Source of the DNA: Halanaerobium sp. MA284_MarDTE_T2
Lineage (GTDB): Bacteria > Bacillota > Halanaerobiia > Halanaerobiales > Halanaerobiaceae
Length of the DNA: 33,790 nucleotides
Assembly: GCF_003337245.1 (NCBI RefSeq)
Contig: NZ_QPJE01000023.1
Location: 1 to 33,790 of the forward strand
Reading direction: 5' to 3'
The position numbers were made by a program, and so were the translations under genes. The number at the start of each line of letters is the position of its first letter. Position 1 is the stretch's first letter. The notes below the pieces were generated by a model, which saw nothing but the letters and a program-made list of their open reading frames with translations, searched no databases and was not told the origin of the DNA. This document shows, piece by piece, positions 10,106 through 33,649 of the stretch.

Positions 10106-11228
10106 TTATTCACCTTTTCTATCGGCAGAATTTATGCTTGCATATTTTAAATAGGATTCTATAAATTCATCCAGATATCCATCCATAACTTTCTGTGTGT
10201 TTCCCTCTTCATGTCCGGTTCTGTGATCTTTTATCATATTATAGGGGTGAAAAACATAGGACCTTATCTGACTGCCCCAGGCAATTTCCTTATGCTCACC
10301 ACTTAATTCCTCTATTTTTTCTGCCTGTGCTTCCTCTTTTAGTTCAATTAGTTTTGAAGTTAAAATTTTCATTGCCACAGATTTATTTTTATGTTGTGAC
10401 CTTTCATTCTGACACTGTACAACTACACCTGTAGGCAGATGTGTTATCCTTACAGCCGAATCTGTCTTATTAACATGCTGTCCACCTGCTCCACTGGCTC
10501 GATAAGTATCTATCTTTAAATCATTTTCATTAATATCAACTTCTACATCATCATCAATTTCCGGTATTACATCTACTGAGGCAAAAGAAGTATGCCTCCG
10601 GCCAGATGAATCAAAAGGAGAAATCCTTACCAGACGGTGAACACCTTTTTCCCCTTTAAGATATCCATATGCATAATCACCAGAAATCAGCAGGGTTACA
10701 CTCTTAATACCGGCTTCATCTCCGCCAGTAAAATCCAGAGTCTTTACTTCATAGCCATTACCTTCTGCCCAGCGGGTATACATTCTGAGCAGCATTTCTG
10801 CCCAATCCTGTGATTCTGTACCTCCAGCCCCAGGGTGAATTGAGAGGATGGCATTATGGTCATCATACTGACCATTTAACCTCAGCTGTAATTCTAGATT
10901 ATCTATTGTTTTTTCTAAAGCTTTAAAGGTGTTTTTTAGATCACTAGAAACAGATCCAGAATTCATCTCATCACTGAGCTCCATAAATACCTCAGCTTCC
11001 TCAAACTTTTCTTCCAGTTCTTTCATCACTTTAAGCCTCTTTTTTATCTTGTCCAGCCGCTGTGATTTTTTGCGGGCATTTTTCTTATTATCCCAAAAAT
11101 CGGAGGCTGCCATTTCTTTCTCTATTTCTTTTTTTTCTTTCTTTAGTGAAGACGTGTCAAAGTAAATCACTCAATTCATTAAATCTATCTTTTAGTTCTT
11201 CATATTTATTTTCATAATTCACTGCCAT
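10106..11228 (-). CDS. prfB: Peptide chain release factor 2, with programmed +1 frameshift
   Basis: RF2 releases the peptide at UAA and UGA. The reading frame is split: codons 1-23 run from ATG at 11226-11228 to CTT at 11160-11162, then an in-frame TGA (11157-11159) followed by C. Skipping one base gives GAC and the rest of the protein, so the product is join(11228..11160, 11158..10106), about 373 residues. The anticodon-like SPF tripeptide (RISPFDSSGRR) identifies RF2 rather than RF1, and GAGGQHVNKTDSAVR holds the catalytic GGQ. A start confined to the second frame would truncate the N-terminal domain. The ribosome site GGGAGATGAT overlaps the end of secA, which stops 4 bp before, so the two genes are coupled. 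Confidence 0.96.
11156..11174 (-). other. RF2 autoregulatory frameshift site
   Basis: On the minus strand the recoding heptamer CTTTGAC (11162-11156) sits after a weak GAGTGAT purine-rich stretch that could act as the internal Shine-Dalgarno. When RF2 is scarce the ribosome slips forward on CTT and avoids the UGA. The upstream stimulator is less perfect than the AGGGGG of enterobacteria. Confidence 0.9.
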
Positions 11229-16087: not shown

Positions 16088-16201
16088 TCAATTAAAGATT
16101 TTCATCAGGGCCTGGAAGCTGATGCCCAGATCCAGCACTGTCGCACCAATTAGGAACAAAATTAAAATTAAAATAATCTGTAGATCAATATTTCTCATCA
16201 T
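16088..16201 (-). CDS. Small single-span membrane protein (37 residues), unlisted
   Basis: An ATG at 16199-16201 overlaps the rfaE2 stop in an ATGA arrangement and opens a 37-codon frame ending TGA at 16088-16090. The peptide begins MMRNIDLQ, then has a hydrophobic stretch (IILILILFLIGATVLDLGI) long enough to cross the membrane, and ends SFQALMKIFN. It fills the gap between rfaE2 and sigH almost exactly, so it is likely translated by coupling. I do not recognise the family. Its position directly before sigH raises the possibility of a link with the sigma factor, which is speculation. Confidence 0.6.
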   Translation of the reverse strand: MMRNIDLQIILILILFLIGATVLDLGISFQALMKIFN

Positions 16202-16674
16202 TTAGTCTGCCTAATCTTTTTAACCAGTTCTGTTGTTGATCTGCCTTTTACCTCTTTAATAAAAACTATCTTCCCCCCATATTCATAGACAGTCTCTGCT
16301 TCAGGCAAATCTTCCAGCCTGTAGTCACCGCCTTTTACATAAATCTGTGGTTTCACATCTTCCAGAAGACTCCTGCAGTCCACTTCCGAAAATGGTACAA
16401 GAAAATCTATCATATCAAGAGCAGATAATATTTCCATACGTTCTGCTCCTGGTACATAAGGACGATTACTGCCTTTAAGCTTTTTTACTGAACTGTCACT
16501 GTTAACTGCCAGTATAAGCTTATCTCCAAGTGAGGCCGCTTTTTTAAGATATCTTATATGACCAACATGAAGAATATCAAAACAACCATTTGTAAAAACA
16601 AGCAGTACTCCCTCTGCTTTTAATTTATCTGCTTTTTCTTTTAGTTCATCTCTTGTTAAAATTTCAGCTGACAC
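16198..16674 (-). CDS. rfaE2: D-glycero-beta-D-manno-heptose 1-phosphate adenylyltransferase
   Basis: A 158-residue nucleotidyltransferase corresponding to the C-terminal domain of E. coli HldE. It makes ADP-D-glycero-beta-D-manno-heptose. The family motifs are FTNGCFDILHVGHIRYLKKA (with HxGH), LILAVNSDSSVKKLKG, RMEILSALDMIDFLVPF and a closing GRSTTELVKKI. The start GTG at 16672-16674 lies inside the end of rfaE1, giving an 11-base overlap. As a stand-alone protein with a separate kinase it represents the split form of HldE. ADP-heptose serves LPS inner core or, in some Gram-positives, S-layer glycans. Confidence 0.94.
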   Translation of the reverse strand: MSAEILTRDELKEKADKLKAEGVLLVFTNGCFDILHVGHIRYLKKAASLGDKLILAVNSDSSVKKLKGSNRPYVPGAERMEILSALDMIDFLVPFSEVDCRSLLEDVKPQIYVKGGDYRLEDLPEAETVYEYGGKIVFIKEVKGRSTTELVKKIRQTK

Positions 16675-17674
16675 CCTTAACCACTTCCTTTATCAATTCT
16701 TCCGGAGTAACAACTGCCACTCCACTTTTTCGCACCACAATACCGGCTGCAGTATTAGCAATATTAACAGCCTCCTTCACCTCTGCTCCAGAAGCAAGGG
16801 CCAGAATAAGAGTGCCTACAACGGTATCTCCGGCTCCAGTTACATCAAAAACTTCTGTAAAATTAGCTGCCGGTATATGAAAAATTTCATCTCCAGGAGA
16901 GAACAGGGTCATCCCTTCTCCTCCTTGTGTAATCAGCAGATATTTAAGCTCAAGTTTATCGCGCAGCTTTAAACCTGCTCCTTCTACCTCAGCCTGTGAT
17001 TTGAGAACTTTACCACAGGCTGCAGAAGCTTCTTCCAGATTGGGAGTAGCAATACTTGCTCCTTTAAATCCAGATAAATTGTAGCGGCTGTCAACTGCCG
17101 TCATAACCTGATTTTGTTCTCCCAGATTGATCAGCCTCTGTGTCAGTTCACTACTGAAAAGTCCATTACCATAATCAGAAAACAAAATTCCATTAACCGA
17201 ATTTATATTATTTTCTACATATCTATATATCTTTTCAGAAAGTTTTCCTGAAATCGGATCAGTCACAAGGTGATCTATACGTACAACCTGCTGTCTTACC
17301 ACCTGGTCTCCACCGGCAAGAATTCTGGTTTTTTCTGCAGTGGGTCTTTTTTTGTCCTGAAGAACACCATCTGTCTTTATGTTCCGATTTTGAAGTTCTT
17401 TTTTTAGAGCTTTTCCGATTAGATCACTGCCTATAACTCCAATTAAATTAACGCCACCACCAAGGCTGGAAATATTGCTAGCAGCATTGGCACCACCACC
17501 CGGAAGAATCTTTTCATTTTTCTGCCTCAATATAAGCACCGGAGCCTCCCTGGAAAGCCGCTCCGGATCTCCAATAATAAATTTGTCAGCTATAAGATCA
17601 CCAATTACCATAATCTCCTGCTGAGAAAAAGATTTAATATATTTTATCAGTATTTCTGTATCAAAATCTGACAT
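16664..17674 (-). CDS. rfaE1: D-glycero-beta-D-manno-heptose-7-phosphate kinase
   Basis: A 336-residue PfkB-family kinase matching the N-terminal domain of HldE, which phosphorylates heptose 7-phosphate at C1. Seen: VIGDLIADKFIIGDPERLSREAPV, the glycine-rich GGGANAASNISSLGG, SDYGNGLFS, ATPNLEEASAACG and the catalytic anion-hole motif FDVTGAGDTVVGTLILALASG. ATG at 17672-17674 has AGGAGG upstream at a slightly long 13-base spacing. It is 17 bp after the small barrel-protein gene and overlaps rfaE2, so both steps are co-expressed. The intervening phosphatase (gmhB) is not in the window. Confidence 0.95.
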   Translation of the reverse strand: MSDFDTEILIKYIKSFSQQEIMVIGDLIADKFIIGDPERLSREAPVLILRQKNEKILPGGGANAASNISSLGGGVNLIGVIGSDLIGKALKKELQNRNIKTDGVLQDKKRPTAEKTRILAGGDQVVRQQVVRIDHLVTDPISGKLSEKIYRYVENNINSVNGILFSDYGNGLFSSELTQRLINLGEQNQVMTAVDSRYNLSGFKGASIATPNLEEASAACGKVLKSQAEVEGAGLKLRDKLELKYLLITQGGEGMTLFSPGDEIFHIPAANFTEVFDVTGAGDTVVGTLILALASGAEVKEAVNIANTAAGIVVRKSGVAVVTPEELIKEVVKGVS

Positions 17675-23433: not shown

Positions 23434-24303
23434 TTAAAAATTATCTACTACCTTTTTTAAATAATCAGCAAATTCTTCTTTAAACTCTTTTCTCCTCAGT
23501 GCAAAATCAACTGTCGCCTTTAGAAAACCCATTTTATTACCCACATCATACCTCTGTCCTTCAAAATCATAGGCATAGATTTTCTTTCTGGACAATAGAG
23601 TTTTTAATGCATCTGTCAGCTGAATTTCGCCTCCACGTCCGGGAGGTGTATTTTCTATAATCGGGAAAATATCCGGAGTAATAATATAACGGCCCAAAAT
23701 GGCAAGTTCTGAAGGTGCTTCTTCAACAGAAGGTTTTTCTATCAGATCTTCAGCAAGATAGAGATCCCCATCTTTCTGGCTGAAATCAACAATTCCATAT
23801 TTACACACATCTCTGTGCGGAACTGTCTGACAGCCAAGCACAGGGCTCTCCGTTTTTTCGTAAATTTCTATCAACTGCTTTATAGCTGGGATTTTGGAAT
23901 AAATAACATCATCTCCCAGCAGAACTGCAAATGGATCATTTCCCACAAAAGTTTTAGCACAATAGATGGCATGTCCGAGGCCTTTTGCCTCTTTCTGGCG
24001 CACTGTATGTACCCTGATCATGCTGGAAATTTTTCTGACTGTTGTCAGCATTTCATCTTTATCCTGTTTTTCTAAAGCCATCTCAAGCTCAGCACATTTA
24101 TCAAAATGATCTTCTATCGACTGCTTGTTGCGGGCTGTAATTAAAAGGATATCTTCTATACCTGCCTCTACTGCTTCTTCAACAATATACTGTATTGTCG
24201 GTTTGTCAACTATGGGCAGCATTTCTTTTGGCTGTGCTTTAGTGGCAGGTAAAAATCTGGTTCCCCAACCTGCAGCTGGAATTACTGCTTTTGTGACTTT
24301 CAT
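23434..24303 (-). CDS. galU: UTP-glucose-1-phosphate uridylyltransferase
   Basis: A 289-residue enzyme making UDP-glucose from UTP and glucose 1-phosphate, the precursor of many surface glycans. The nucleotide-binding signature VIPAAGWGTRFLPATKAQPKEMLP is followed by DKPTIQYIVEEAVEAGI, AKGLGHAIYCAKTFVG with FAVLLGDDV, LIEKPS and GRGGEIQLTDAL, all standard for GalU. Length is typical. ATG at 24301-24303 has AGGAGTGTGAT upstream. It is near the phosphohexomutase gene, which supplies glucose 1-phosphate, with the patatin gene between them. Confidence 0.96.
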   Translation of the reverse strand: MKVTKAVIPAAGWGTRFLPATKAQPKEMLPIVDKPTIQYIVEEAVEAGIEDILLITARNKQSIEDHFDKCAELEMALEKQDKDEMLTTVRKISSMIRVHTVRQKEAKGLGHAIYCAKTFVGNDPFAVLLGDDVIYSKIPAIKQLIEIYEKTESPVLGCQTVPHRDVCKYGIVDFSQKDGDLYLAEDLIEKPSVEEAPSELAILGRYIITPDIFPIIENTPPGRGGEIQLTDALKTLLSRKKIYAYDFEGQRYDVGNKMGFLKATVDFALRRKEFKEEFADYLKKVVDNF

Positions 24304-24414: not shown

Positions 24415-26283
24415 TTAAAATTTGTAACCTAATTCCACTCCAAACCTTTCATCTTCTCTGTCAAAATCATAGGCTGTATAAATATCCAGCTCTATCGGCT
24501 TAAGTCCCAGCAGATAAAGTTTTGAATTAACACCTATTCCGGCAGCTGAGGCAGTATCACCTTCACCATCTTTATAATAATCTGCAATAAGATAAGCACC
24601 TATATTTGTCATTTGAAATACCTGCAGCAGTTCAAATGGTTCACTTAAACGGTAATTATAATTAAAATTTACTGCTGATTGAAATTCCGCCTCAAAATCA
24701 TCCAGATCCCGCCCTCTATAAATTACAGGAGAAGGTAAAATATCGCTGCTGTTGTAAACCAGCCTGGTTTCAATTCCCCAGGCTCTGCTGAAATCATAAT
24801 TTATATAGTGAGAAGAAAGTATTTCACTTTCTGATTCATCTTTCAAAAATATTATATCATTTTCTGTCTGCCATTCAATTTTTTTCCCTTCTTCTCTAAA
24901 ATCAGCTCCAAACAGGTAATATTCCTCATCCATGCGGCGGCCTTCCCCAAAACCAAAGTTAAATCTTTCCCCAAAATATTTTATTTCTCCCTCATAATCA
25001 TCTTCCGTATCAGAATCATAATCATTGCTGTAGCTGAAGAAAAAATCAAGCTGTTCTGTCATTTTAGCAAAGCGAAAAAAAGCTTCATAGCCGCTGTCAA
25101 ATCCATCCTTTTCTAAAACGCCTAAAGATAAATTTTTATTTTTAAATTCAAGTCCTGTCTGAAAATCATTCAGCGGTGAGCGCAACATTTCCTGCTTAAA
25201 TATAGAGTGATCACGTCCATAATAAAGCAAAAACTCCAGATCTTTCCCCTGGGTTACAAATCTATCGTATTCCAGATCACGCAGTGAACCTGAAATATTA
25301 TAATGTTTCCGTGGTATATAATCAACAGTTGTTACCCCTTTTTTTGCCAGCTCTGCTTTAATCTCCGGCATCATATCAACTGCTGTTTCATAACCAATCT
25401 GTATAAATTTTTCTGCCATATTAAAGTCCATAAAAGAATAGTCTCCGACATCACATTCAATTACAATATCTGCATATCTATTTATTATCTGTGTAGAATG
25501 CTTCTTCTGTATTATGTTGAGAAACCTGCCGGCTGAACGGGAAGCTGAACCATAATCTTCCAGATCAAAATTATCAAATGATGTTGTAGCAATAACTATA
25601 TCTGCTCCCAGCAGGGAGGCGGCTTTTGCCGGTGTGGCCTCCAATATGCCGGCATCAATAAAATAATCTTCTCCTTTTGAATGTATAGGAAAATAAAATG
25701 GAATGGAATAAGAGCTCTGAATCTCTTCTGATATTCTACCACTTGTTGCAAGATATTTTTTTCCTTCTGACAGATTAAAACTCAAAAGGGCTGCCGGTAC
25801 CGGAAAATCCTCCAACCTTTTATTGGGCGATATTCTCTCAAGAAAAAGATTAACTTTTTCTGTATCCAGCAGTGAGCCTCCTCCAGATATACCTATATTA
25901 AGCAGGTCTACAAAAGGAGTGCTGCTTATAATATCAGTCATCTGATCAACAGGCAGTCCACCACCATAGATAACACTTACAATAGCTCCCATACTTGTAC
26001 CTACCAAAAAGTCTATCGGTATTCCATTCTCTCTTAGCGCTTTTACTATACCAAAATTTACTATCGCCCGGGCTCCACCACCGGAAAGTGCAAGACCAAC
26101 TACAGGCCGATTTTTGCCGGATATCCTTTCCTGAAATTGAAGATAATTTTCTACAAGATATGATTCATCTCCATAAACAATTTCTGTAATATCAGATAGA
26201 TCTTCAGCTGCAAATGCTGGGTGAACTAACAACAGGAATACAGCTGCTGTTATAAATATTAAGAGGTTAATTTTCAGCTTCAA
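24415..26283 (-). CDS. Patatin-like phospholipase with C-terminal outer-membrane beta-barrel (type Vd-like)
   Basis: A 622-residue protein. A signal peptide ending AFA (about residue 26) precedes a patatin lipase domain (about 60-260) with the oxyanion loop GLALSGGGARAIVNFG, nucleophile Ser97 in GTSMG and catalytic Asp210 in FIDAG. The remainder (about 310-622) has a short POTRA-like segment (YNISGSLRDLEYDRFV) and many amphipathic strands of the BamA/D15 kind, closing with the outer-membrane signature FGVELGYKF. This order matches type Vd autotransporters such as PlpD and FplA. The start TTG at 26281-26283 has AAGGGGG upstream and begins a good signal peptide; the longer frame to 26349 would bury it. 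It presumably releases or displays a phospholipase at the cell surface. Confidence 0.88.
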   Translation of the reverse strand: MKLKINLLIFITAAVFLLLVHPAFAAEDLSDITEIVYGDESYLVENYLQFQERISGKNRPVVGLALSGGGARAIVNFGIVKALRENGIPIDFLVGTSMGAIVSVIYGGGLPVDQMTDIISSTPFVDLLNIGISGGGSLLDTEKVNLFLERISPNKRLEDFPVPAALLSFNLSEGKKYLATSGRISEEIQSSYSIPFYFPIHSKGEDYFIDAGILEATPAKAASLLGADIVIATTSFDNFDLEDYGSASRSAGRFLNIIQKKHSTQIINRYADIVIECDVGDYSFMDFNMAEKFIQIGYETAVDMMPEIKAELAKKGVTTVDYIPRKHYNISGSLRDLEYDRFVTQGKDLEFLLYYGRDHSIFKQEMLRSPLNDFQTGLEFKNKNLSLGVLEKDGFDSGYEAFFRFAKMTEQLDFFFSYSNDYDSDTEDDYEGEIKYFGERFNFGFGEGRRMDEEYYLFGADFREEGKKIEWQTENDIIFLKDESESEILSSHYINYDFSRAWGIETRLVYNSSDILPSPVIYRGRDLDDFEAEFQSAVNFNYNYRLSEPFELLQVFQMTNIGAYLIADYYKDGEGDTASAAGIGVNSKLYLLGLKPIELDIYTAYDFDREDERFGVELGYKF

Positions 26284-26320
26284 TTTTGACCCCCTTTTAA
26301 AATAAAATCCTGTTAAAGAA

Positions 26321-26343
26321 GGGAACAGTAATTTACTGCTCCC
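26321..26343 (-). terminator. Hairpin between the phosphohexomutase and patatin genes
   Basis: GGGAACAGTAA and TTACTGCTCCC pair with one mismatch around a minimal loop, 28 bp beyond the phosphohexomutase stop. On the minus strand it is followed by TTCTTTAAC, a weak U tract, so termination is partial or uncertain. Confidence 0.5.
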
Positions 26344-26371
26344 CTGCAAAAATATTATATTTCAGAGACAA

Positions 26372-28117
26372 TTAAAAGCTTTGAATTATTTTATTTATCT
26401 CATCCATAACTTTATTGCTTAGTTCTTCCAGTGCTTTTTCTGCTTTACTGGCATTTTTCTCCCTTACCGCAAAATAAAGCTTCAATTTAGGTTCAGTTCC
26501 AGAAGGACGAATTGTTATTTTTGCATCACCCTCCAGTAGGTACTGAAGCACATTGGATTTGGGCAGTTCTATTGTTTCTACTTTTCCATCTTTATGATAA
26601 ACTGTTTTACTCTGTTTGTAGTCTCTGCTAACCAAAACACCTCTGCCGCCCAGATTTTCCGGGCTCTTTTCGCGGAAAGCTGCAATAGTTTTTTCTATTT
26701 TTTCCTGTCCCTCTTTTCCTTCCAGGCGTATTGATTGAAGGTCTTCTTTAAAATATCCATATTTTTCCCTCAGTTCCTTTAGCCTATCCAACAGGCTCAA
26801 TCCTTTTTCTTTATAGTGTAAAGCTGCTAGAGCAACAAGGGCAGCTGCAATAACAGCATCCTTATCTCTGGCGTGTTTCCCTATTAAATAACCCAAACTT
26901 TCTTCAAATCCAAGTATAAATTCTTTTTCTCCACTTTCTTCAAATTCTGTTATCTTTTCGCCAATAAATTTAAACCCTGTCAGCACATCCATAACTTCCA
27001 CATTATAATCTGCTGCAATCTCTCTTACCATCTCTGTAGAAACAATTGTTTTAATAATAACTCCATTATCAGGCAGTTCTCCCTTTTCTTTCATTCTTTT
27101 AAGCAGATAATCCGCAAAAAGAACACCTGTTTCGTTTCCATTTAGAGCTTTATAGCTCCCATCTGCATCTTTAACAGCAGGAGCCATCCTATCACAGTCC
27201 GGGTCTGTTGCAATAATCAAATCAGCCTCTTCTTTTTTTGCCAGATTAACAGCCATCTCAAATGCTGAAAAGTCTTCAGGATTGGGGCTTTCCACTGTAG
27301 AGAATTCAGGATCTGCTTCTGCCTGCTTTTCAACAACACTTAAATTGCTGAAGCCCAACCTCTTAAGTAGGCTGCACACTGGTATATTACCTGTTCCATG
27401 CAGTGGTGTAAAGACTATTTTTAGATCTTTTCCATGTTCTTCTGCAAGTTCTTTATCCGGAAGAGACTTTAAAATCTCTTCTTCAAAGCGCTGATCGATA
27501 TTATTACCTATATAATTCAAAAGCTTCTGAGATTCTGCTTCCTCTGATTCTATCCTTTTTACAAGAGAAAAATCATCGATTTCTTCTATTTCTGCAATAA
27601 TATCTCTTGCTCTATTCGGTACTACCTGACCTCCATCTTCCCAGTAAACCTTATAGCCGTTATATTCGGGAGGATTATGACTTGCAGTAATTACAATTCC
27701 TCCCACAGCGTTAAGTTCTCTCACTGCAAAGGAAAGCTCCGGAGTAGGTCTGAGATCTTTAAAAAGATATGTTTTTATTCCATTTCCCGCCAGAACAAGT
27801 GCAGCTTCAAGAGAAAATTCAGCTGAATTGCGGCGTGAATCATAGGCGATTACAACACCTCTTTCTCTACCGTTATCACTGTAATTTATTATATAATTAG
27901 CTAATCCCTGTGTAGCCTTTCTTACTGTATATTTATTAATTCTATTGGTGCCAGCTCCCATTTTTCCCCTCATACCACCGGTTCCAAAATCCAGATTTTT
28001 ATAAAAACGATCTTCTATTTCCTCTTCATTATCTTTGATAGCTTCAAGTTCTTTTTTTGTATTTTCATCAAAATAATCGCTTACCAGCCAGTCACGATAT
28101 CTGGACATATAATTCAA
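26372..28117 (-). CDS. Phospho-sugar mutase (phosphoglucomutase/phosphomannomutase)
   Basis: A 581-residue alpha-D-phosphohexomutase, the long form typical of Firmicute PgcA. It interconverts glucose 6- and 1-phosphate (or the mannose equivalents). Phosphoserine Ser146 is in TASHNPPEYNGYKVYW, the metal-binding loop is DPDCDRM, the sugar-specificity loop is GFEESLGYLIG and the phosphate-binding loop is RPSGTEPKLKLYF. The GTGGMRGKMGAG motif near residue 50 also fits. TTG at 28115-28117 is preferred over ATG three codons later because AAAGGAG is 10 bases upstream. It has its own extended -10 promoter and a leader with two small hairpins. It supplies sugar phosphate for galU. Confidence 0.94.
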   Translation of the reverse strand: MNYMSRYRDWLVSDYFDENTKKELEAIKDNEEEIEDRFYKNLDFGTGGMRGKMGAGTNRINKYTVRKATQGLANYIINYSDNGRERGVVIAYDSRRNSAEFSLEAALVLAGNGIKTYLFKDLRPTPELSFAVRELNAVGGIVITASHNPPEYNGYKVYWEDGGQVVPNRARDIIAEIEEIDDFSLVKRIESEEAESQKLLNYIGNNIDQRFEEEILKSLPDKELAEEHGKDLKIVFTPLHGTGNIPVCSLLKRLGFSNLSVVEKQAEADPEFSTVESPNPEDFSAFEMAVNLAKKEEADLIIATDPDCDRMAPAVKDADGSYKALNGNETGVLFADYLLKRMKEKGELPDNGVIIKTIVSTEMVREIAADYNVEVMDVLTGFKFIGEKITEFEESGEKEFILGFEESLGYLIGKHARDKDAVIAAALVALAALHYKEKGLSLLDRLKELREKYGYFKEDLQSIRLEGKEGQEKIEKTIAAFREKSPENLGGRGVLVSRDYKQSKTVYHKDGKVETIELPKSNVLQYLLEGDAKITIRPSGTEPKLKLYFAVREKNASKAEKALEELSNKVMDEINKIIQSF

Positions 28118-28291: not shown

Positions 28292-29380
28292 TCAACTTCT
28301 ATAATTTTTCACTGCCTCTACAATTTGTTCTAATTCAGCATCACTTAATGCTGGATGTACCGGGAGAGAGATTACCTCTTCTGCAGCCTTTTCTGCCTCT
28401 GCAAATTTAAGTTCAGCACAGCCCAGTTTTTTATAATAAGGCTGTTTGTTTACAGTTAATGGATAATGAATTCCATAACCAATTCCTTTTTCTGTTAAAT
28501 AATCAGCAAATCTATCTCTATCCTTAACTCTAACAGTATACTGATGGTAAACATGTTTTCTTTTTTCCGGAACTGTTGGTGTTTTAATCCAGTCAAGTTC
28601 GGAAAATTCCTGATCAAAAAGGGCGGCATTTTCTATACGGCTTATATTAAATTCCGGCAGCTTCTCCAGCTGAGCCAATCCAACCGCTGCCGCAATATTG
28701 GTCATTCTAAAATTATACCCCAGCCGATCATGATAATACTTTTCTTTCTGTCCGTGATTAATAATACTGGCTGCTTTATTATAAATTTTTTCACTATCAG
28801 TGAGAACTATACCACCTTCACCTGTTGTCATATTTTTAGTTGGATAAAAACTGAAGATGGAGGCATCACCAAAAGTACCCACTCGTTTCCCTTTATATTC
28901 TGCACCATGTGACTGTGCACAGTCTTCTATTAAAATAAGATTGTATTTTTCTACCAGCTCCATAATGCGGTCCATATCACAGCTGAGTCCGTAGAGATGC
29001 ACGATTAAAACTGCTGAAATTTCTGGATCAGATTGGAGTTTGAGCTCCAGCTTATCTGCATCAATATTATATGTTGCTGGGTTTATATCCACAAATACCG
29101 GTTCTGCTCCTGTATAAAGAATAGAATTACTGCTTGCAATAAAGGTAAAAGGAGTTGTTGCAACCTTATCTCCTTCTTTTATTCCCGCAGCCAGCAGAGC
29201 AGTGTGCAGTGCTGCTGTACCACTTGAAGTTGCTGTACCATATCTGCTGCCGATAAATTCTGCAAATCTTTGTGAGAAATCTTTCACATACCTGCCTGAA
29301 GCCAGCATTCCGCTGTCCATAACCTCCAGAACTCTGCTTTTTTCTGCTCCTGTAATTACCGGTTTTGCAATCGGTATCAT
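28292..29380 (-). CDS. gnnB: DegT/DnrJ/EryC1 aminotransferase, GnnB-like
   Basis: A 362-residue PLP-dependent sugar aminotransferase. The N-terminal IAKPVITGAEKSRVLEVMDSG, the GTATSSGTAALHTALLAAGI phosphate-binding region, Asp153 in LIEDCAQSHGA and the PLP lysine Lys182 in FSFYPTKNMTTGEGG are all present. It follows an oxidoreductase gene by 6 bp, which itself follows lpxA. In Acidithiobacillus and Leptospira this trio makes UDP-GlcNAc3N, with GnnA oxidising the C3 hydroxyl and GnnB transaminating it. The specific assignment therefore rests on context; relatives such as WbpE/WlbC act on UDP-ManNAcA/GlcNAcA-type sugars. ATG at 29378-29380 has AAGGA upstream. Confidence 0.8.
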   Translation of the reverse strand: MIPIAKPVITGAEKSRVLEVMDSGMLASGRYVKDFSQRFAEFIGSRYGTATSSGTAALHTALLAAGIKEGDKVATTPFTFIASSNSILYTGAEPVFVDINPATYNIDADKLELKLQSDPEISAVLIVHLYGLSCDMDRIMELVEKYNLILIEDCAQSHGAEYKGKRVGTFGDASIFSFYPTKNMTTGEGGIVLTDSEKIYNKAASIINHGQKEKYYHDRLGYNFRMTNIAAAVGLAQLEKLPEFNISRIENAALFDQEFSELDWIKTPTVPEKRKHVYHQYTVRVKDRDRFADYLTEKGIGYGIHYPLTVNKQPYYKKLGCAELKFAEAEKAAEEVISLPVHPALSDAELEQIVEAVKNYRS

Positions 29381-29386
29381 ATATAT

Positions 29387-30346
29387 CTAGTCCTTCCTGT
29401 AAATCTGATTCTGTATTTTTTTTGTCAGCCGCAAAGCCTCAAGCCCATCTGAACCATTTATAAGTGGGCGTGTCTCGTTTTTTACGGCACAGATAAAATG
29501 ATTCAGCTGTGCTTTGAGGGGTTCTTCTTCATCAGAAAATATCTCTTCAAGTTCATTTTCCTGCTGATAGTTGTTATCATGAACAAGTCCACCTCTTCTG
29601 GTTACAATTACCTTTCTCTGCATATAATCCAGCTCTACATAGGACTTCATGGTGGTTATGCTCAGCTTTCTTACTTTTTTGTGGGTGGCTCTGCTTGCTG
29701 TCAGGGTTGCAATAACTCCATCTGACATAAGTATATTTGCCACAGCATAATCTATCAGCTTATCTGATTTAACTACCCTGCCAAATCCCTGCACATCTTT
29801 TATATCTCCTTCTATTAAGGAGTTAACCACATCGATATCGTGAATCATCAGATCCTGAATTACGTCTGTATCATCTATACGCGGATCATATGGCCCCATC
29901 CGCTGCACATCAAGTGCAATTATATCTTCATCTTCCAAAATTCCCGGCAGAGCCTGAATAGCAGGATTAAATCTTTCAATATGGCCCACCTGTACTGTTA
30001 AATTCTTATCTTTCGCCATAGAAAGTATCTCTTCTGCCTGGTCTACTTCACTTGTTATCGGCTTTTCTATAAGTATATGTATACCTCTTTTTACTGCTTC
30101 CACCGCTATATTGTAGTGGGTCGATGTTGGAGTAGCAATATTTACTGCATCTACTTCTGCAAGCAGGTCTTCCAGACTGGAAAAGGATTTAACCCCATAG
30201 CTCTGAGCCGTATCATCTGCTCTTTTGCTGTCTATATCATAAATTCCAATCAGATTACATACATGTTTTAAAGATGCATATGCTCTAACATGGTTTATTC
30301 CCATACTCCCTACACCGATAACTCCAACTTTTATCCTGTCCTTCAT
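29387..30346 (-). CDS. gnnA: Gfo/Idh/MocA family NAD-dependent oxidoreductase, GnnA-like
   Basis: A 319-residue sugar dehydrogenase. The Rossmann motif VGVIGVGSMGINHVRAYASL opens the protein, IATPTSTHYNIAVEAVKRGIHILIEKPI contains the EKP motif, and VIQDLMIHDIDVVNSLI holds the conserved catalytic His/Asp region. It lies 15 bp after lpxA and 6 bp before the aminotransferase gene, so the three are one transcription unit. By comparison with the lpxA-gnnA-gnnB order known in Acidithiobacillus ferrooxidans it most likely oxidises UDP-GlcNAc at C3. An alternative is oxidation of another UDP-sugar for surface glycans. ATG at 30344-30346 has AAGGAGGAG upstream. Confidence 0.8.
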   Translation of the reverse strand: MKDRIKVGVIGVGSMGINHVRAYASLKHVCNLIGIYDIDSKRADDTAQSYGVKSFSSLEDLLAEVDAVNIATPTSTHYNIAVEAVKRGIHILIEKPITSEVDQAEEILSMAKDKNLTVQVGHIERFNPAIQALPGILEDEDIIALDVQRMGPYDPRIDDTDVIQDLMIHDIDVVNSLIEGDIKDVQGFGRVVKSDKLIDYAVANILMSDGVIATLTASRATHKKVRKLSITTMKSYVELDYMQRKVIVTRRGGLVHDNNYQQENELEEIFSDEEEPLKAQLNHFICAVKNETRPLINGSDGLEALRLTKKIQNQIYRKD

Positions 30347-30361
30347 TGTTCTCCTCCTTAT

Positions 30362-31168
30362 TTACCTGCATATACCTCTGGTGCTGCTTCTTATAAATCT
30401 AATAAAATGCTCTATTTCTTCACTGGTTTTCAGCACCTGGTCCATCTTAATTAAAGCTTTTTCTGTACTCAGTCCTGAATCATAGAGTATTTTATACGCC
30501 TTTACAATCTCTTGTTTTAAGCTTTCATCAACCTTCTTTTTGCGCAGGTCACTGAAATTTACTCCAACTACCTGAGCTGGATGTCCACTTGCTTCTATAT
30601 ATGGAGGTATATCTTTTACAACTTTGGAATGTGTATTGACCCGGGCCAGCTCTCCTATATGGACAAATTGGTGTACACCAACAATAGATTCCAGCGTAGC
30701 ATCATTTTCTATCACTACATGTCCAGAAAGATTGGTACAGTTTCCGAGAGTAATGTTATTGCTCAAAATACAGTCATGTGCTATATGTGAATATGACTTA
30801 AAGTAGTTTCCATTTCCGATTCTGGTCTCTCCTCCTCCATCAACTGTTCCTCTATGTACTGTAACAAACTCTCTAAAACAATTTCCATCTCCTATAAATA
30901 CATGGGTTTTTTCTCCATCATAATCCAAATGCTGTGGAGGAAGACCAATAGAACAGCCATTATAAATTCTGTTATCCGCACCTATCCTGGTCCAGCCATC
31001 TATATGTACACTTGCACCGATAGACACATTACTGCCAATCTTTACATCTGCACCAATAACTGTATATGGCCCTATTTCTACACCAGCTGCAAGCTCTGCT
31101 TCTGGAGAAACAACTGCAGAGGGATGTATATTTATATTTCTGCGCGGTCTAAAATTTTTTCTCGGCAA
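30362..31168 (-). CDS. lpxA: Acyl-ACP-UDP-N-acetylglucosamine O-acyltransferase (or N-acyltransferase)
   Basis: A 268-residue left-handed beta-helix acyltransferase, the first step of lipid A synthesis. Hexapeptide repeats start at residue 12 (INIHPSAVVSPEAELAAGVEIGPYTVIGADVKIG). The catalytic His131 is in SHIAHDC, and HQFVHIGELARV and PPYIEASGHPAQVVGVN match the family's C-terminal half. By hand alignment the E. coli Gly173 chain-length position is Thr179. With GnnA/GnnB-like genes directly downstream, the acceptor may be UDP-GlcNAc3N, giving an amide rather than an ester. TTG at 31166-31168 has AGGAG 10 bases upstream. Presence of lpxA shows the cell has an LPS-type outer membrane. Confidence 0.94.
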   Translation of the reverse strand: MPRKNFRPRRNINIHPSAVVSPEAELAAGVEIGPYTVIGADVKIGSNVSIGASVHIDGWTRIGADNRIYNGCSIGLPPQHLDYDGEKTHVFIGDGNCFREFVTVHRGTVDGGGETRIGNGNYFKSYSHIAHDCILSNNITLGNCTNLSGHVVIENDATLESIVGVHQFVHIGELARVNTHSKVVKDIPPYIEASGHPAQVVGVNFSDLRKKKVDESLKQEIVKAYKILYDSGLSTEKALIKMDQVLKTSEEIEHFIRFIRSSTRGICR

Positions 31169-31224: not shown

Positions 31225-31920
31225 CTATAATTTATATTTAAATTTTATGGATATCTTTTTAGCAAATTTATCTGTACTATCAGATCGACTGTTATGGAGC
31301 TGTCTTTCCACCTGAAATTTAGTATCAATATCTAAATCGGAATTAATCTTCCAGCCCCAGCTGATTCCAACCCTGTCTTTATTATAGTCCTTATCCTTAT
31401 CATTATAATATTTTGTCCACTGCTTTTGCAAAAATATTTCATAATCGTGTTTTTCATTGAGAGAAAACTGCCAGCTGTAATTGATTCTGGCGATATGATA
31501 TGATTTAATCTCTGATTTAGTATAGTCTTTATCTCTCAGCATAATTTTTATTCTGTTCCTCAGTCCTTCTTTTAAATAAAAAGTATAATTTCCCTCTATT
31601 TTATAGGAAATATTATCATATGCTGATTTTATATCATATTCTCGTTCATAGCGCTCAAACTTTAGATAATAATATTCATAAGGAGCCAGCTTCTGCTTAT
31701 ATTTAAGCCACTGCTTATTATAGCGGAGATAATCCACAAAATTCTCATCCCGGGGATAATCCCAGTCAGAATTTCCCGGATCTGTATATAGCCTGTCTCC
31801 TGATTCAAAACTGCCGCTTATTTCTGGTTTATAACCTCCGGCCGACACATGTGAAGGATATACGAAAATAACAGCTACTACAGCCAGACTAAAACAATAG
31901 ATTAAAAAGTTCTTTTTCAC
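31225..31920 (-). CDS. Signal-peptide beta-rich protein, likely outer-membrane barrel
   Basis: A 231-residue protein of unknown family. A signal peptide (MKKNFLIYCFSLAVVAVIFVYPSHVSA) precedes a mature part very rich in Tyr, Lys and Asp arranged as alternating strands (YYLKFERYEREYDI, RIKIMLRDKDYTKSEIKSYH, ISIKFKYKL). It probably forms an outer-membrane barrel of 10-12 strands. GTG at 31918-31920 is the start, with AAGGGTGAT upstream. It lies between the lptD-like gene (67 bp) and lpxA (56 bp), so a role in LPS assembly or envelope structure is plausible but not shown. A weaker sigma-H-like motif pair precedes it. Confidence 0.7.
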   Translation of the reverse strand: MKKNFLIYCFSLAVVAVIFVYPSHVSAGGYKPEISGSFESGDRLYTDPGNSDWDYPRDENFVDYLRYNKQWLKYKQKLAPYEYYYLKFERYEREYDIKSAYDNISYKIEGNYTFYLKEGLRNRIKIMLRDKDYTKSEIKSYHIARINYSWQFSLNEKHDYEIFLQKQWTKYYNDKDKDYNKDRVGISWGWKINSDLDIDTKFQVERQLHNSRSDSTDKFAKKISIKFKYKL

Positions 31921-31987: not shown

Positions 31988-33649
31988 TTATATCTCTATT
32001 CCAAATAAGTAATTACCATCTATAAACTCATAGCCGACAAAAAACTTAAAACAATCTTCCACTTTTGTTATCTTTGCTGTGATTTCATCCCATTTTTCGG
32101 TCTCTATTTTATATGCTGCATCAGCACTCAACTGCCACGAAGACTGAGGCAGATCTGATGGAATATTAAGCGTCATACCCGGCCGAATAAAAGTTTCTTC
32201 ATCTTCCCTGTCATCAGGCAGTGGAGAAGTACCGCTTACTTCCATTTTATCAAAAAACAACCTTGTATTTAACCTCATCCTGTTTTTAAATTTTCTGCTG
32301 TGGGTAAAACCTGTATAAAGATTAAAGATGTGGTAGTTCTCATAATCACCTTCATAATTGTGAAATCTGTAATTATGTCGCAAATGATATCTTAAATTTC
32401 CAATCAGCTTATAGCTGTAGTTCATATTTATTCTGCCAACCTGTTTATTGAGCCGAACACCACCATTTTCTACCTCACCAAATCCAACTGATGTAGTAAT
32501 ACCTTTAACCAAAGTAGGAAAATACAAGTCCAGAAATGGATAATAGTTGTAATCTTCCCCATCAACATATTTTAAGTTCCATCTAATTTTGTGCATAGAG
32601 GAATTAAGCACATATAACTCCTTAACCAGTCCATCTTCATTATATTCCTGACGCATACGTCCCCGCAGTCCGGGCAGATATGTCTGACTATATGTTAATA
32701 GGTAGCGGCGCTCATCTGCCAGCAGATCCTCTCCTATACCACCAGATATAGATAAACTGTTTTTTCTGTAATTTAAGGTGCTAAAAAATTCCTCATCATG
32801 TTCATCAACTTCCTCATCATCACTGTCATATATGTAAAGATATTTGTACCTATTTTGCCAGCTTAGATTATCAGTTATCTGATATTTATTTATAAATTCG
32901 CGGGTGTCTTCATCATCACCTGCCTGCCAGTAATAAATATTACCACTGTTTTTTTCGCTTGTCTGATATGGATAGGAAAACTCTACTGTCATGCCCTTCC
33001 CTGATTCATAACCGATCTGAGGTATAGGCATCGCATCTTTAAATTCCCCTTCTCCGTCTTCAGAATAATTATATTCTGCTGCATAATAGGGTAGATAAAA
33101 GGCAGGAACTTTACCTATATATGTGACTATATGGTGAAGAGTAATTGTTTTATCAGGATGTACCCTTATTTCTTTTGCTTTAAAATGGTAGTGAGGTTTT
33201 TCTCTAATACACGGTGTAAATTCTCCATCTGTCATATTGAGCTCCAGGGGTGATACAGCAGTTATATTTAACTTTTTGCTGCCAAAATTAAGCTCTCCCA
33301 GGCTGCTTTCTGCTCCATAGATTGTACCTTTTTCTTCTTCATAATTGTACTCCATACTCTCTCCTGTAACTTTCTGACTACCTGAGATAAGCACAACTTT
33401 CACCGGTGAAATAATCAATTTCTTCTCAGAATCAACTTTCAGACGCTCTGATAGTATTGAAAATTCCTCAGAGGAAAAAACTGCATTCCCACTAACAATC
33501 ATCTCTGCTTTCTGCTGTGAAAAAATTATTTCATCCCCTTTTATTGTATAATCTTCTTCTGCCGAAACACTGCCATTTACAAAAACAAGCAGGGCTGTAA
33601 CAGTTATTATGTAAGCTGCATTTTTAATTATGTTTTTGGATAAATTCAT
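31988..33649 (-). CDS. lptD: LptD/OstA-like LPS-assembly outer-membrane protein
   Basis: A 553-residue protein, shorter than E. coli LptD (about 780). A signal peptide (to about residue 30, VSAEE) is followed by an OstA-type beta-jellyroll (about 33-140; YTIKGDEIIFSQQKAEMIVSG, GESMEYNYEEEKGTIYG) and then the conserved LptD linker HYHFKAKEIRVHPDKTITLHH with VGKVPAFYLPYY-type ending (here YIGKVPAFYLPYY). The remainder is a beta-barrel with many aromatic strand ends. It inserts LPS into the outer leaflet. The compact barrel fits diderm Firmicutes. ATG at 33647-33649 has AGGAG. The 3' end of a group II intron lies only 48 bp upstream, so its promoter must be very close, inside the intron, or beyond it. 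Confidence 0.88.
   Translation of the reverse strand: MNLSKNIIKNAAYIITVTALLVFVNGSVSAEEDYTIKGDEIIFSQQKAEMIVSGNAVFSSEEFSILSERLKVDSEKKLIISPVKVVLISGSQKVTGESMEYNYEEEKGTIYGAESSLGELNFGSKKLNITAVSPLELNMTDGEFTPCIREKPHYHFKAKEIRVHPDKTITLHHIVTYIGKVPAFYLPYYAAEYNYSEDGEGEFKDAMPIPQIGYESGKGMTVEFSYPYQTSEKNSGNIYYWQAGDDEDTREFINKYQITDNLSWQNRYKYLYIYDSDDEEVDEHDEEFFSTLNYRKNSLSISGGIGEDLLADERRYLLTYSQTYLPGLRGRMRQEYNEDGLVKELYVLNSSMHKIRWNLKYVDGEDYNYYPFLDLYFPTLVKGITTSVGFGEVENGGVRLNKQVGRINMNYSYKLIGNLRYHLRHNYRFHNYEGDYENYHIFNLYTGFTHSRKFKNRMRLNTRLFFDKMEVSGTSPLPDDREDEETFIRPGMTLNIPSDLPQSSWQLSADAAYKIETEKWDEITAKITKVEDCFKFFVGYEFIDGNYLFGIEI

Follow-up and report, generated by a model that had tools for sequence, protein, structure and literature searches.

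The lpxA2-gnnA-gnnB trio

We analyzed a window of 33,790 nucleotides, positions 1 to 33,790 of contig NZ_QPJE01000023.1 of Halanaerobium sp. MA284_MarDTE_T2 (assembly GCF_003337245.1), in which an lpxA gene, a gene for a Gfo/Idh oxidoreductase of the GnnA type, and a gene for a DegT aminotransferase follow one another on the minus strand and probably form an accessory lipid A module. The lpxA gene (30362–31168; 268 amino acids) starts with a TTG codon just behind GGAAGGAG, and the gnnA gene (29387–30346; 319 amino acids) starts with an ATG codon just behind AAGGAGGAG, each a good ribosome binding site. The DegT gene (28292–29380; 362 amino acids, ATG start) has its ribosome binding site, GGAAGGA, within the end of gnnA. 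An earlier, sequence-only reading of the window had reported this order with gaps of 15 bp (lpxA/gnnA) and 6 bp (gnnA/DegT gene), both of which were confirmed. Scans for promoters and terminators revealed nothing beyond the level of shuffled sequence.

The encoded LpxA passed the curated cut-offs of TIGR01852 and PRK05289 (313 and 285 bits) and contains His122, His125, His144, and His160. In the host genome, which is 99.8% complete, a second, intact lpxA was found on another contig (C9), which the sequence-only reading had missed. It lies in a tamB-bamA-skp-lpxD-lpxC-fabZ-lpxA1-lpxI-lpxB-lptC-lptA-lptB-lptG operon, named by similarity and position. As this intact copy occupies the canonical lpx operon, we refer to it as lpxA1 and to the window copy as lpxA2. 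All LpxA2 proteins formed one clade (100/99) nested within the Halanaerobiia LpxA clade (97/97); by its place in the tree, LpxA2 is an old duplicate of the host LpxA. A horizontal origin from an Acidithiobacillus- or Leptospira-like donor was ruled out by this nesting. LpxA1, or a pseudo form of it described below, occurs in 14 of the 16 LpxA2-bearing genomes, and the exceptions, G015 and G036 (genomes and loci are given by our labels), are incomplete assemblies. The order lpxA2, gnnA, gnnB is shared by 15 genomes, in most of them next to an lptD-like gene; because this recurs across families of the order, the arrangement is more than chance. The main Halanaerobiales cluster has been described previously, in a paper (Antunes et al., 2016; PMC5007114) that leaves gnnA unmentioned in its main text. 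Neither LpxA nor GnnA was found in G014, a 95% complete genome of the same order, and lipopolysaccharide has possibly been lost within Halanaerobiales.

The two-step conversion of UDP-N-acetylglucosamine (UDP-GlcNAc; UDP, uridine diphosphate) by GnnA and GnnB has been summarized elsewhere (PMC8036547; PMC5644692). Compared with solved structures, the Gfo/Idh protein matched 7bvj best (172 bits), which bears the PDB title UDP-N-acetylglucosamine 3-dehydrogenase GnnA from A. ferrooxidans; the next match reached 82 bits and WlbA (3q2k) 45 bits. A structure search with its AlphaFold model (predicted local distance difference test, pLDDT, 91.6) placed five GnnA chains on top (E 1e-32 to 1e-34), with the next match (8e-25) at least seven orders of magnitude weaker and WlbA at rank 33. 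In a 73-row tree, the window protein sits with GnnA and is separated from WbpB by very long branches; WbpB as query did not retrieve 7bvj. Sequence, tree, and predicted structure thus give good support to GnnA orthology, as the sequence-only reading had proposed, and 3-dehydrogenase activity is predicted. The protein reached 255 of 450 bits against NCBIfam NF040723, an archaeal enzyme, below the curated cut-off; this family does not define GnnA, because Acidithiobacillus GnnA itself reaches just 160 bits.

GnnA was detected in 23 of the 61 genomes searched. Homologs also occur in the monoderm Metabacillus and Acidimicrobiales (L136, L141, L131, L151), with a DegT neighbor in Acidimicrobiales, so the product must serve something besides lipid A there. 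In several phyla, a GnnA-like Gfo/Idh gene lies beside lpxA/lpxB without an adjacent aminotransferase (L137, L138, L145, L158, L170, L179).

The DegT enzyme has the catalytic pyridoxal phosphate lysine (K182, in SFYPTKN), and its N-terminus and TTGEGG loop are shared with perosamine synthetase, a 4-aminotransferase. The Halanaerobiia DegT proteins form their own clade. Phylogeny, as suggested in the sequence-only reading, placed the oxidoreductase with GnnA rather than WbpB and the aminotransferase with neither Acidithiobacillus GnnB nor WbpE. The aminotransferase belongs to a distinct DegT lineage instead of being orthologous to Acidithiobacillus GnnB, although it may work like GnnB; as it is constantly paired with GnnA, from the adjoining gene, we infer that it aminates C3. 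A PseC annotation was uninformative, since Acidithiobacillus GnnB and WbpE likewise match PseC best, below the cut-off.

Reciprocal loss of the two LpxA faces

LpxA active sites lie between subunits, with the UDP pocket (Leu116, Met118, Ile134, Ile152, Met170, Asn198, Arg204, Arg205) on one side and the GlcNAc and catalytic pocket (Gln73, Asp74, Lys76, His125, Gly143, His144, Gln161, Phe162) on the other (PMC7072397, Table 1; chain labels from PMC6286764). The catalytic face of LpxA2 is kept (His122, His125, Asp126, Gly143, His144, His160, Gln161), whereas its UDP face carries K118, R170, and K204 in the window protein, which does not hold a complete composite site in one subunit. Counted by the literature-defined halves, LpxA1 of the same genome has 8/8 UDP and 11/11 catalytic residues, and LpxA2 has 1/8 and 9/11. 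We assigned faces by the phase of the 18-residue coil. The window LpxA2 is identical to its own LpxA1 at 3/20 positions of the UDP face, 26/30 of the catalytic face, and 14/26 of the third face, and similar identities were found in three further genomes with a live LpxA1. Met118, Gly155, Met170, Gly172, and Arg204, conserved at 91–100% in live LpxAs, are retained in 14%, 0%, 7%, 0%, and 14% of LpxA2s and are replaced by many different letters, while nearly all catalytic residues are retained across LpxA2s. The monomer model of LpxA2 is of middling confidence (pLDDT 76).

The opposite loss was observed in ten genomes, all with LpxA2 (G016, G018, G020, G021, G023, G024, G026, G027, G029, G032), whose lpxA1, next to fabZ and also to lpxI where that gene was seen, encodes a pseudo-LpxA1; G030 (62% complete) also has one. 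All pseudo-LpxA1 sequences have lost His125, Asp126, Gly143, His144, His160, and Gln161 and have kept Met118, Met170, Asn198, and Arg204. The gene is under purifying selection, with ratios of nonsynonymous to synonymous substitution rates (dN/dS) of 0.02–0.11 in the pairs that could be compared. Scored against the live LpxA consensus, pseudo-LpxA1 had a retention of 0.73 for the UDP face, 0.29 for the catalytic face, and 0.59 for the third face; the corresponding values for LpxA2 were 0.22, 0.84, and 0.58. Permutation of positions reached its floor of 1e-5 for this pattern in a test that ignores relatedness, and both groups of pseudo-LpxA1 show the pattern. Dead LpxA1 genes with intact frames lie in the main lpx operons of module relatives at L097:4317-5117, L106:8808-9614, L099:18809-19684, L192:7978-8781, L196:7027-7926, and L250:244-1116. 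The pseudo-LpxA1 of G016 (L251:2417-4333) has 638 amino acids, with low-complexity Ser/Lys/Gly-rich expansions before and behind the LpxA core.

The GlcNAc pocket of the window LpxA2 is also changed (Q73-H74-L75-D76). Position 76 is Lys in E. coli, P. aeruginosa, B. fragilis, and H. pylori and Gly in L. interrogans (PMC7072397); in E. coli, Lys76 contacts the sugar ring oxygen (PMC6286764) and is listed as essential (PMC4322802). Other LpxA2s have Asp, Glu, Gly, Asn, or Arg here, Acidithiobacillus LpxA has Gly, and the f10 genomes, which carry gnnAB elsewhere, have Gly, Ser, or Ala in their only LpxA. Among the 135 LpxAs compared, with f10 counted as linked to gnnA, Lys or Arg was absent from position 76 in 33/44 gnnA-linked proteins versus 6/91 others, and five of these six come from gnnA-positive genomes. 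Loss of Lys76 is support, not proof, for an LpxA2 with a predicted preference for the 3-amino sugar UDP-GlcNAc3N; the idea that this loss strictly marks UDP-GlcNAc3N use was rejected. An argument from an Asp74–His125 dyad was dropped, since the structure shows Asp126 as the partner of His125 (PMC6286764).

A candidate route to amide-linked lipid A and its alternatives

The best explanation of the whole, in which we place moderate confidence, is an accessory amide-lipid-A module with LpxA2 working in mixed trimers. GnnA would oxidize UDP-GlcNAc at C3, the DegT enzyme would aminate the product to UDP-GlcNAc3N, the presumed substrate of LpxA2, and the catalytic face of LpxA2 would move the first 3-hydroxyacyl chain onto the 3-amine to give an amide; the usual enzymes encoded in the main operon, LpxC, LpxD, LpxI, and LpxB, would carry on from there. 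In the simplest view, LpxA1 would bring the UDP face and LpxA2 the catalytic face of one composite site within a mixed LpxA1:LpxA2 trimer. The reciprocal face loss in LpxA2 and pseudo-LpxA1 points to such a hetero-oligomer, for which we judge the chances about even. The sequence-only reading had assigned acylation of the 3-amine to the local LpxA; the altered GlcNAc pocket agrees with this, but the loss of the UDP-binding face speaks against LpxA2 acting alone.

Amide-linked lipid A is likely, though ester linkages need not be absent. The LpxA1 of the window organism is complete and can still make the ester-linked precursor, so mixed or hybrid lipid A is expected, and ester and amide (or hybrid, switchable) forms could coexist. 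Therefore, the earlier expectation of amide instead of ester chains does not follow, given the intact E. coli-like LpxA1 encoded elsewhere in the genome. In the ten relatives with a dead LpxA1, the LpxA1–LpxA2 pair looks obligate. It is an evenly balanced question whether, in many Halanaerobiales, LpxA became an obligate hetero-oligomer by reciprocal degeneration after duplication, with LpxA1 (or its dead descendant) giving the UDP face and LpxA2 a GlcNAc3N-adapted catalytic face, and with gnnAB tied in for the making of lipid A with amide linkages. We know of no other LpxA hetero-oligomer with a composite site.

Several results weigh against this interpretation. The aminotransferase lies outside the Acidithiobacillus GnnB clade, in a subfamily that resembles 4-aminotransferases by its TTGEGG loop, and G032, whose module (L099:3695-5650) has lpxA2 and gnnB with LpxA1 dead, has no gnnA recognizable in module or genome. 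Many gammaproteobacterial gnnAB genomes retain Lys76, and a phylogenetically independent contrast of Lys76 with gnnA linkage was not significant (median p 0.25). The UDP face is also less conserved in general (UDP versus catalytic retention, against the same consensus, 0.57 versus 0.75 in E. coli and 0.36 versus 0.71 in Leptospira), so the face trend of LpxA2 alone is an exaggeration of a general one and partly expected. Moreover, the face boundaries were drawn after the pattern was seen; the residue halves were taken from the literature. The argument is carried by the inverse pattern in pseudo-LpxA1 and by the loss from LpxA2 of residues that nearly all of the about 130 other LpxAs keep.

The lower general conservation of the UDP face suits a rival proposal, that LpxA2 is a self-sufficient, UDP-GlcNAc3N-specific homotrimer as in Leptospira, its UDP face merely diverged, and that pseudo-LpxA1 has taken on an unrelated role. 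The LpxAs of E. coli, Leptospira, and Acidithiobacillus, with both faces, require no partner, and the LpxA2 of G015, where no LpxA1 was found, retains Met118, Met170, Asn198, and Arg204; this assembly, however, is 90% complete and in 450 contigs. Against the proposal, Met118, Gly155, Gly172, and Arg204 are 98–100% invariant in live LpxAs, and their replacement in LpxA2 by many different letters indicates relaxation rather than a new specificity, while pseudo-LpxA1 keeps exactly the residues that LpxA2 has lost. We therefore regard a homotrimer as rather unlikely.

A use of GnnA and the DegT enzyme in supplying core, O-antigen, or capsule with a diamino sugar, with LpxA2 incidental, appears more doubtful still. 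The Halanaerobium genomes G004/G006, and likewise G022, do have gnnAB at a distance from every lpxA (next to hldA/hldC in G022), together with a Lys76-type LpxA1, and the nearest outside relatives of the window GnnA in the tree include monoderm Acidimicrobiales. Nevertheless, between the module genes neither an N-acetyltransferase nor a glycosyltransferase was seen, the lpxA2-gnnA-gnnB order is kept as described above, and because LpxA1 is dead in ten module-bearing genomes, LpxA2 must feed lipid A there. As for a WbpB/WbpE-type pair acting on UDP-GlcNAcA, the DegT enzyme scores 220 bits against WbpE, but the branches that exclude WbpB from the GnnA clade and its failure to retrieve 7bvj make this pathway extremely improbable, and we treat it as ruled out by tree and structure.

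Several known systems come close to the module. The named Acidithiobacillus loci (lpxD-fabZ-lpxA-gnnA-gnnB-lpxB) share the lpxA-gnnA-gnnB order of the window, as the sequence-only reading had noted; GnnA of A. ferrooxidans is homologous in sequence and fold, and Acidithiobacillus LpxA likewise lacks Lys76. There, however, the genes are part of the main lpx operon and a single LpxA has both faces, whereas those of the window form a second locus, where LpxA2 is a paralog and the aminotransferase comes from another DegT lineage. Leptospira interrogans LpxA (3hsq), also with Lys76 replaced (Gly71), was the best PDB match of the window LpxA, by a margin of 2 bits over other LpxAs that is not meaningful; unlike LpxA2, it retains Met118, Met170, Asn198, Arg204, and Asp74. 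It is reportedly selective for UDP-GlcNAc3N, as Robins et al. are said to have found in 2009. LpxA2 shares family, catalytic histidines, and left-handed beta-helix with the E. coli LpxA homotrimer, in which each subunit uses both faces, whereas LpxA2 keeps one and the pseudo-LpxA1 of relatives the other. Gammaproteobacteria with two LpxAs and gnnAB (e.g., G394, G344, G454) also have a second LpxA without Lys76, directly beside gnnAB in G394, but its faces are mostly intact.

If the interpretation holds, this would be the first hetero-oligomeric LpxA known to us; LpxA, so far taken to be a homotrimer, is essential and a drug target. The finding would also extend GlcN3N lipid A to a lineage of diderm Firmicutes for which we found no report of lipid A chemistry, and would offer a natural series from ester LpxA through a two-LpxA state to a dead LpxA1. 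The residue-level split gives clear, cheap predictions for co-purification and activity.

Habitats and neighboring genes

The genome of the salt-loving host belongs to the family of Halanaerobium, a genus from which gnnA is mostly absent. The two Halanaerobium with gnnAB are H. polyolivorans, from the Tanatar III soda lake (PMC10536098), and one genome fitting H. hydrogeniformans, from Soap Lake (PMC4237134). Judging from isolate names, several module-bearing metagenome-assembled genomes come from Siberian soda lakes of pH 10 (PMC6146748) and others from brine, Great Salt Lake, and digesters. The soda-lake Halanaerobium and metagenome-assembled genomes fit the earlier idea of an alkaline-habitat trait, but this is suggestive only, since genomes with names indicating non-alkaline brine and digesters also have the module. 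Genomes with and without the module allow asking whether amide chains go with alkaline habitats.

Upstream of the trio, near the contig end, the minus strand encodes an LptD-like outer membrane protein (31988–33649; a weak LptC/OstA-like match below the cut-off, no Pfam match), the genomic anchor of the module. Between it and lpxA2 lies a gene for a small outer-membrane-barrel-like protein of unknown function (31225–31920, minus strand), conserved in several relatives. Downstream are genes for a phosphohexomutase (PGM/PMM; 26372–28117, minus strand), often the next gene past gnnB in relatives, and, further on, galU (23434–24303, minus strand), which comes after pgm in the modules of several relatives. 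Relatives from several families of the order repeat the arrangement lptD-like, (barrel), lpxA2, gnnA, gnnB, (pgm, galU). A module-dedicated LptD2 was ruled out, because the LptD-like gene is single copy in the host genome and has close homologs in genomes without gnnA (40/41 relatives, with or without gnnA, have a homolog).

Between galU and pgm, positions 24415–26349 encode a patatin domain with a long C-terminal part resembling an outer-membrane barrel. At 16198–17674, hldA and hldC (heptose kinase and adenylyltransferase) are separate genes. The start region of prfB (11150–11170) contains CTTTGAC, the sequence at which release factor 2 genes usually undergo programmed +1 frameshifting. The open reading frame listed from 11170 therefore probably lacks the true start of the gene.

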